DNA from: Rhodothermia bacterium
GTDB taxonomy: Bacteria > Bacteroidota > Rhodothermia > Balneolales > Balneolaceae
Assembly (NCBI GenBank): GCA_030427885.1
Contig: JAUICM010000002.1
Coordinates: 1-64,000, forward strand
Reading direction: 5' to 3'
DNA length: 64,000 bases
Positions 3,150 to 3,808 of this stretch are shown piece by piece; within the stretch, counting starts at the first letter, position 1; each line of letters opens with the position of its first letter. The notes below the pieces were generated by a model. That model saw only the letters and a program-made list of their open reading frames with translations, searched no databases and was not told the DNA's origin. The position numbers and the translations under genes were made by a program.

Positions 3150-3206
3150 TCAATTTCCAACTCTTTTTCCATTATCCCGAGAGTATAGTGCGTATACTGT
3201 GAACAT
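3150..3206 (-). pseudogene. 5' remnant of a second GIY-YIG gene
   Basis: Read on the minus strand from 3206, the first nine codons give MFTVYALYS, identical to the start of the intact GIY-YIG gene at 3573. The frame then runs into unrelated sequence and stops at 3150. The shared codons lie inside the left copy of the 106-bp direct repeat. This is a truncated gene start left by duplication or recombination, not a functional gene. Confidence 0.7.
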
Positions 3207-3284
3207 AGACTTAAAATAAAAAAAGCCCTCTGTATTTCTACAGAAGGCTTCTATTTAGTGGCGGGGACAGGATTCGAACCTGCG
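3179..3284. repeat. 106-bp perfect direct repeat, left copy
   Basis: Identical base for base to 3546-3651 (offset 367). It contains the first codons of a GIY-YIG gene, a tRNA terminator and the 3' part of a tRNA-Met gene. Identity stops abruptly inside the T-arm/variable region of the tRNA. Confidence 0.95.
3218..3250 (-). terminator. Terminator, left repeat copy
   Basis: On the minus strand, AGCCTTCTGTA pairs with TACAGAGGGCT across a GAAA loop, followed by a T run. Same sequence as the terminator after the intact tRNA (3585-3617). Confidence 0.8.
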
Positions 3285-3319
3285 TCCGCCAGCCGGCGGA
3301 TAAGAGCCCAACGAGCTAC
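3259..3319 (-). pseudogene. Broken tRNA-Met copy carrying a palindrome
   Basis: The 3' half (T-arm and acceptor, 3259-3284) is identical to the intact tRNA-fMet, and the GTAGCTCGTTGGGCTC part (3304-3319) resembles its D-arm/anticodon stem. The anticodon loop and variable region are replaced by sequence including the palindrome TCCGCCAGCCGGCGGA (3285-3300). The 5' third is missing and is replaced by the end of the GIY-YIG gene, whose TAG stop lies in the D-stem remnant. It cannot fold as a tRNA. Confidence 0.8.
3285..3300. repeat. GC-rich palindrome inside the broken tRNA
   Basis: TCCGCCAGCCGGCGGA has 7-bp arms (TCCGCC... against ...GGCGGA) and sits exactly where the tRNA copy departs from the intact gene. 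It resembles small GC palindromes seen near GIY-YIG ORFs in Bacteroidota (recalled, not checked). Confidence 0.7.
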
Positions 3320-3573
3320 TTTGGAAATTTTAAACGTACCTGTCCCCAAATAAATGCTCTGCCCTTCGCGCTTTTCAATTCCTTCTCTCTTTGCATTGCT
3401 TCTGCTTTTGTTACGTGCTCCTCGGTATATACCAAAACCCAAGGCCGGTATTTGATCGTCCAGCCTTTGGTCCCAAGTGTATTATGTGAAAGTATCCTGG
3501 CATCAAGATCTGAAGTATACCCTAAGTATATTTTATCATATTCTGGAGAGTATAGTGCGTATACTGTGAACAT
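3316..3573 (-). CDS. Single-domain GIY-YIG endonuclease family protein
   Basis: The 85-residue product matches the compact GIY-YIG fold. The VYAL...KIYLGYTSD segment gives the family motif (VYA and YLG in place of GIY and YIG). Arg26 in DLDARILSHN is the expected helix arginine, and the Glu in AMQREKELK is the metal-ligand candidate. Family members (UPF0213/YhbQ-like) are small nuclease-fold proteins of unclear role. The gene lies between a complete tRNA-fMet and a broken tRNA copy; its first nine codons are in the right 106-bp repeat and its stop is in tRNA-derived sequence. This suggests a selfish or tRNA-targeted element. No nuclease assay is implied. Confidence 0.85.
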   Translation of the reverse strand: MFTVYALYSPEYDKIYLGYTSDLDARILSHNTLGTKGWTIKYRPWVLVYTEEHVTKAEAMQREKELKSAKGRAFIWGQVRLKFPK

Positions 3574-3651
3574 AGACTTAAAATAAAAAAAGCCCTCTGT
3601 ATTTCTACAGAAGGCTTCTATTTAGTGGCGGGGACAGGATTCGAACCTGCG
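3546..3651. repeat. 106-bp perfect direct repeat, right copy
   Basis: Right copy of the repeat at 3179-3284. It spans the GIY-YIG start codons, the intergenic terminator and the 3' end of the intact tRNA-fMet gene. Confidence 0.95.
3585..3617 (-). terminator. Terminator after tRNA-fMet
   Basis: Minus-strand hairpin AGCCTTCTGTA / TACAGAGGGCT with a T run, starting nine bases after the tRNA 3' end. It lies between the tRNA and the GIY-YIG gene. Confidence 0.85.
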
Positions 3652-3698
3652 ACCTTCGGGTTATGAGCCCGACGAGCTACCAGCTGCTCCACCCCGCG
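3626..3698 (-). tRNA. Initiator tRNA-Met (CAT)
   Basis: The minus strand folds as a full 73-nt cloverleaf without encoded CCA. Acceptor arms are CGCGGGG and CCCCGCC with an unpaired C1-C72, the anticodon loop is CTCATAA (anticodon CAT), and the T-arm is GCAGG TTCGAAT CCTGT. Three consecutive G-C pairs in the anticodon stem (TCGGG/CCCGA) and the unpaired first acceptor position are hallmarks of the formyl-methionine initiator tRNA rather than elongator Met or tRNA-Ile2. Confidence 0.95.
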
Positions 3699-3808
3699 AT
3701 TTAGGATCACAAATATACGATTATTCTCTTACCAACATCAACAGAGTTTGGCTCTTTTTTTATCAAACTGAACTTTTGTTTCTGTATTTTTGGAAAAATT
3801 TCAAATAC

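Follow-up and report, generated by a model that had tools for sequence, protein, structure and literature searches.

Organization of the tRNA-Met locus

The locus lies on the minus strand at positions ~3150–3700 of the window, the 64-kb stretch of DNA that was analysed, and is flanked by an aminotransferase class III gene (here called rocD) and a gene encoding a GWxTD-domain protein. In minus-strand order it consists of a tRNA-Met(CAT) gene (3698–3625), a terminator, a GIY-YIG ORF (3573–3316), a broken tRNA copy, a second copy of the terminator, and the nine-codon start of another GIY-YIG ORF, whose frame continues into unrelated sequence and ends at a stop codon:

3625–3698, minus: intact initiator tRNA-Met(CAT), only full-length copy in the genome (ARAGORN; Rfam tRNA, 65 bits; single full-length match in G000)
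3588–3619, minus: terminator hairpin behind the intact tRNA, first copy (14-bp stem)
3316–3573, minus: GIY-YIG nuclease gene, 85 aa, TAG stop in tRNA-derived sequence (PF01541, 8.9e-15; SLX1/UPF0213-like; AF2 mean pLDDT 95)
3258–3319, minus: broken tRNA copy, tRNA nt 19–37 and 48–74 (below the Rfam tRNA threshold)
3285–3300, minus: palindrome TCCGCCGGCTGGCGGA in place of tRNA nt 38–47 of the broken copy (motif count)
3221–3252, minus: terminator, second copy (14-bp stem)
3180–3206, minus: first nine codons (MFTVYALYS) of the second, truncated GIY-YIG gene
3546–3651, minus: 106-bp exact direct repeat, tRNA-proximal copy (exact-repeat search)
3179–3284, minus: 106-bp exact direct repeat, distal copy (exact-repeat search)

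ARAGORN predicts one tRNA across the whole window, the tRNA-Met(CAT), which has three G-C pairs in its anticodon stem, as in initiators. The perfect direct repeat that the first-pass annotation described around the GIY-YIG gene is exact over 106 bp and is the sole exact repeat of at least 40 nt within the window. Each copy comprises tRNA nt ~48–74, one 14-bp terminator stem, and the nine GIY-YIG codons, again as described, and the TAG stop codon of the 85-aa ORF does lie inside a tRNA-derived piece, in which the tRNA homology starts at nt 19. The further proposal of a tandem duplication with subsequent truncation held for the second GIY-YIG gene, so that the locus represents one complete unit and one cut down to nine codons. 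For the broken tRNA, truncation is only part of the change: nt 38–47, which make up the 3′ strand of the anticodon stem plus the variable loop, are swapped for a palindrome of the form TCCGCC-N4-GGCGGA, which occurs once in the window compared with 0.02 expected occurrences. A group I intron with a homing endonuclease was also considered and rejected, since an Rfam scan of positions 3100–3800 returned no intron family and the tRNA is uninterrupted.

A minimal GIY-YIG protein related to SLX1 and UPF0213

The ORF matches PF01541 and no other Pfam domain above the cut-off, and the residues Y5, G18, R26, H30, and E63 are invariant among 26 relatives; the catalytic domain of the GIY-YIG superfamily and its conserved residues are thus present, and the AlphaFold model shows a confident GIY-YIG fold. 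The nearest solved structures by both sequence and fold are UPF0213 proteins and SLX1/At-HIGLE (probability ~1.0), whereas the match to I-TevI is distant (probability 0.28). No extra DNA-binding domain (NUMOD or other) was found within the 85 aa, leaving a bare PF01541 domain. Prokaryotic Slx1-like members are usually such stand-alone bare domains (PMC1564403). By the features tested, the predicted protein falls outside the homing-endonuclease branch of the GIY-YIG superfamily. For most close pairs and tandem copies, dN/dS values are about 0.05–0.33 (0.6 for one pair), indicating purifying selection on the GIY-YIG protein and most copies being kept as working proteins.

Recurrence at different tRNA genes

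One genome per species was scanned with the protein, and 394 genomes of the phylum were searched separately with a profile. The species-level scan yielded 30 relatives, mostly from Bacteroidota, the others from Balneolota, Ignavibacteriota, a Marinimicrobia MAG, and one distant relative from Microgenomates. Nearly all close relatives are located directly behind a tRNA-Met gene, most of them with a palindrome-marked half tRNA after the stop codon. The profile search found matches in 36 of the 394 genomes. When arrays were collected from these 394 genomes by protein similarity alone, ~33 of ~37 had an intact tRNA of the same orientation no more than ~110 bp away; of the remaining ~4, one is 430 bp from a tRNA behind ORF-less units, and three are at a contig end or behind a 5′-truncated tRNA. 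Given ~39 tRNA genes per 4.1 Mb, a locus would adjoin one by chance in well under 1% of cases. Half tRNAs in which a TCCG..CGGA palindrome replaces nt 38–47 were recognized by a strict script at 24 of 38 Met-type copies.

The targets differ between nuclease lineages and include Met-CAT (initiator or elongator), Asn-GTT, Phe-GAA, Arg-CCT, Arg-CCG, Ala-GGC, and Cys-GCA. The genome that contains the window additionally has two tandem units at Gly-GCC and, at Pro-GGG, an ORF with an internal stop codon. Hence, the same module is indeed found at other tRNA genes, which the first-pass annotation had named as a sign of a selfish element. In the protein tree, the eight tRNA kinds with usable rows need seven changes, which is the minimum, vs. 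14–17 in 300 shuffles, and in the explanation favoured here each lineage of the nuclease keeps to a single kind of tRNA gene. Within the Met clade, the position switches seven times between initiator and elongator; in genus g66, for example, close relatives are found behind the initiator tRNA (G286) and behind the elongator tRNA (G218 and G222).

Several contigs end inside arrays (G041, L024), as might be expected if the repeats were assembly artefacts arising from collapsed sequence. Yet the same arrangement occurs in dozens of independent assemblies, including the single-contig genome G218 and named isolates, which an artefact cannot explain, and we regard the probability of this alternative as negligible.

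Mirrored units, tandem arrays, and decay

Two forms of the unit were observed. In the common form, the 3′ part of the tRNA and the terminator are duplicated, as in the window. In the mirror form, the leader and the 5′ half are duplicated before the gene, the intact tRNA follows after it, and the palindrome is on the 5′ side; this form was found at L134 and L143 (both Arg), L144 (Ala), and L107 with its kin L025 and L028 (Met). Both forms alike leave one whole tRNA. Tandem arrays comprise eight units in G121, five in G218, and three each in G394 and G047, with a spacing of about 365–395 bp. The most intact unit is nearest to the tRNA in the window and at L138, L141, L118, and L147, with L110 and L132 as exceptions. 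The two terminator copies are alike in the window, G041, and G394, as expected from local tandem growth, and the terminators adjacent to and behind the insert differ at L031, L032, L022, L113, and L120.

Units lacking the ORF also exist. At L154 (G054), the tRNA-fMet is followed by a unit with a terminator and a palindrome-marked broken tRNA from which the GIY-YIG ORF is deleted, representing a non-autonomous or solo form. Furthermore, L031, L032, L033, and L016 are ORF-less arrays of broken tRNAs with palindromes that are located upstream of the intact tRNA and carry the leader and 5′ half.

The loci could alternatively be remnants of ordinary integrative islands that used the tRNA 3′ half as attB. 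Such an origin would fit initiator-tRNA 3′ halves that start from the anticodon loop and lie away from an intact tRNA gene (L150 in G055, L151 in G039, L135 in G121, and L027), which probably represent the att boundaries of integrated islands of the ordinary kind. However, these att-like ends carry no palindrome, and those in G055 and G039 have no adjacent GIY-YIG gene, whereas the unit described here spans a few hundred bp, contains one ORF, occurs in tandem, and has a broken tRNA copy that starts at nt 15–27. The inserts examined contained the GIY-YIG ORF only and no integrase gene, which led us to reject an integrase island, and an origin from island remnants is considered highly improbable.

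Occupied and empty sites

The gene order rocD–tRNA-fMet is conserved over the family, with the insert missing from many relatives. The Met-type unit is present in about 11 of ~58 family genomes, so that the arrangement is not shared by all relatives, a pattern that would have spoken against a selfish element. Empty tRNA-fMet sites occur in close relatives, including genus g4, which holds three empty and four occupied genomes. In G017, the site is empty and the GWxTD gene is located beyond the tRNA, as in the window. The contrast is clearest between the occupied G349 and the empty G055: a 1.2-kb stretch that follows the broken copy of G349, including the native terminator, aligns at 84% with the region behind the intact tRNA of G055, and behind its own intact tRNA G349 has a different terminator, which resembles that of the element in G053.

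Recombination between the tRNA 3′ halves could delete an insert and leave a clean site. Thus, the direction of change cannot be read from the empty sites, some of which could reflect loss by clean deletion between the repeats. Balneolaceae proteins are scattered in the free protein tree (79 columns), and a constrained tree with the Balneolaceae as a single clade is not rejected (AU test, p = 0.73), so horizontal transfer was dropped as a conclusion from this tree. In a search for a vector, phage records contained no close relative and viral contigs no confirmed one; plasmid records gave one weak match, a Sinorhizobium megaplasmid gene with 42% identity. Separately, the initiator tRNA of the Balneolaceae is near-invariant at nt 1–47, and its T stem varies freely (ACAGG, GCAGG, GTAGG, GGAGG). 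The T stems of occupied and empty g4 genomes differ, but an exchange of the tRNA T-arm was discarded as an explanation because the same variants are present in empty genomes elsewhere.

These data also bear on the alternative that an SLX1/UPF0213-type host gene with a housekeeping role resides beside tRNA genes by chance, and that ordinary tandem duplication including pieces of the tRNA generated the arrays and broken copies as by-products. The purifying selection on the protein is compatible with this, as are the many units with locally identical terminators, which point to local duplication, and a protein tree that does not reject vertical descent with loss. Nevertheless, the sporadic distribution of the gene, the location of one protein family at different tRNA genes even inside a single genus, the occurrence of broken copies of one design in distant groups, and the five loci with differing terminators argue against a host gene, and we consider this explanation unlikely.

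Palindromes and further GIY-YIG genes in the genome

Palindromes of the type found in the broken tRNA have covarying stems (TCCGCC/GGCGGA, TCCGTC/GACGGA, and TCCGTT/AACGGA; TCCCGA/TCGGGA at Gly), and these matching changes on both sides suggest that pairing rather than sequence is kept. TCCGCC-N4-GGCGGA occurs at 21 sites in the genome (L044–L058 and others), compared to one for a control pattern. The palindromes often occupy the tip position at which other copies of an intergenic repeat have another small hairpin, as if the tips had been exchanged. In the family sample, at least three palindromes were present in 11 of 11 carriers of the Met-type unit vs. 16 of 45 non-carriers (p = 9e-5). The correlation between palindrome and GIY-YIG counts is weak (Spearman 0.39), with exceptions in both directions: the GIY-YIG-rich genomes G017, G055, and G058 have no such palindrome, and some palindrome-rich genomes have no Met-type unit. 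The palindrome was therefore discarded as a simple marker of GIY-YIG gene number.

The GIY-YIG genes of this genome that are not associated with a tRNA lie amid intergenic hairpin repeats in direct or inverted orientation. Of the 16 GIY-YIG loci in the genome, 10 are bracketed by direct repeats, compared with none of 240 control positions in the window. At least one further locus (L063, G000:C4:98183-98407), a non-tRNA gene, has the intergenic hairpin GTCATCCTGAACTTGTTTCAGGATC at either end as a perfect 27-bp match in inverted orientation. Seven of the non-tRNA genes (L059, L060, L062, L063, L064, L071, and L073) share, with variants, a 5′ leader right before the start codon, consisting of TGTAAGGA, about 15–20 nt, and GGTCTTAC, which is possibly a regulatory hairpin.

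Taken by themselves, these repeats invite a different interpretation, in which the protein would be a hairpin-specific mobilizer, a GIY-YIG counterpart of REP/RAYT systems, that engages hairpins, whether single-stranded or within cruciforms, and has tRNA genes, terminators, intergenic hairpin repeats, and TCCGCC..GGCGGA palindromes as its substrates. SLX1 and UPF0213 proteins being the nearest relatives would agree with such an activity, and so would the setting of the non-tRNA genes, the replacement of hairpin tips by palindromes in both tRNA copies and intergenic repeats, and the enrichment of palindromes in Met-type carriers. The genomes in which GIY-YIG genes and palindromes do not coincide speak against it, and the palindromes may be an independent repeat of Bacteroidota; we therefore find this interpretation possible but doubtful. 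A broader scheme would combine both aspects in an undescribed, widespread class of bacterial mobile elements: SLX1-type GIY-YIG nucleases would recognize DNA hairpins, one branch homing into tRNA genes and rebuilding them from a carried half, sister branches spreading intergenic hairpin repeats, and the palindromes, exchanged into the arms of hairpins, marking spent sites. We put this scheme forward only tentatively.

A probable selfish unit that may regenerate its target tRNA gene

The probable explanation for the loci is a selfish unit that resembles homing endonuclease genes, targets tRNA genes, and regenerates the interrupted gene from a half that it carries. In tandem, the unit measures about 365 bp and comprises the tRNA 3′ part, the terminator, the GIY-YIG gene, a tRNA piece from nt ~15–27 to the anticodon, and the palindrome. 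The nuclease most likely cuts or nicks the target tRNA gene in one of its arms, in the Met type the anticodon arm, and recombinational repair would then copy the unit into the cut gene. The carried half, either the 3′ half with the terminator or, in the mirror form, the leader with the 5′ half, would replace one half of the interrupted tRNA, leaving one functional tRNA and displacing the host's own half. The palindrome would ruin the displaced copy as a tRNA and, as we suggest, also as a cut site. As the intact tRNA would remain open to renewed hits, tandem arrays could grow in which older units are pushed outward and decay. The earlier view of a selfish element that uses the initiator tRNA as a landing site and leaves one tRNA intact is thus well supported by the empty sites and by the module at other tRNA genes, with the terms selfish and landing being inferred from anatomy.

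Several points count against this selfish-unit explanation. Homing endonucleases typically possess a DNA-binding domain, whereas the protein here consists of the catalytic domain alone. The unit's intact tRNA also retains the presumed target and would seem exposed to self-cutting. Moreover, the anatomy, recurrence, linkage to target tRNAs, occupied and empty sites, purifying selection, and arrays are observations, and DNA cleavage, the position of the cut, homing as the route, and the role of the palindrome are deductions from them.

Comparison with known systems

SegB of phages T4 and T6 is a free-standing GIY-YIG homing endonuclease that cuts inside tRNA genes, and its activity drives tandem amplification of tRNA and segB in phage T6, involving many tRNA kinds (PMC13096335). 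By analogy, SegB would be the closest functional parallel: in both cases a GIY-YIG nuclease gene adjoins tRNA genes, tRNA and nuclease are repeated in tandem, and many kinds of tRNA are affected. In contrast to the phage enzyme, for which neither the replacement of a tRNA half nor a palindrome-marked broken tRNA is reported, the units described here are chromosomal and encode an 85-aa domain of the SLX1/UPF0213 type. SLX1 and UPF0213 proteins are nearest by sequence profile and fold and share the stand-alone minimal domain, but the members known so far are seen as nucleases that are structure-specific or serve in repair, and none is described with duplicated tRNA halves.

Replacement of a gene end has a counterpart in the fungal mitochondrial atp6/ORF360 system, reportedly an intronless homing endonuclease gene that carries a replacement gene end. 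There, too, the invaded gene receives a fresh end from the element while its original end is displaced, although the target is a mitochondrial protein gene and neither a tRNA nor a palindrome is involved. In REP/RAYT systems, small dispersed palindromes likewise occur in one genome with a single nuclease-type gene family, but the enzymes there are Y1 transposases instead of GIY-YIG proteins, and tRNA halves are carried only by the units described here. Finally, tRNA-integrating islands share the insertion site, a carried part that keeps the tRNA functional, and a displaced 3′ end, and differ from the present units in that the latter have no integrase, span a few hundred bp, mark the displaced copy with a palindrome, and appear to re-insert in tandem. 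We class the unit as one that would work like a free-standing homing endonuclease gene. A search of the open full-text literature found SegB and superfamily reviews, but no published bacterial element with tRNA halves.

Implications

Nearly all family genomes searched have just one initiator tRNA gene, yet selfish units appear to insert repeatedly into this gene and to rebuild it. If true, this would represent a selfish element that regenerates the highly conserved genes it targets and is compact, with a single small ORF in a few hundred bp, and would assign a mobility function to many small GIY-YIG genes of Bacteroidota-like genomes that are now annotated by domain only. The system is directly testable, as the nuclease has only about 80–130 aa, the target tRNA is known, and alleles with and without the unit occur naturally. 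It could also contribute to an understanding of duplicated tRNA genes, pseudo-tRNAs, and some of the palindromic repeats between genes.
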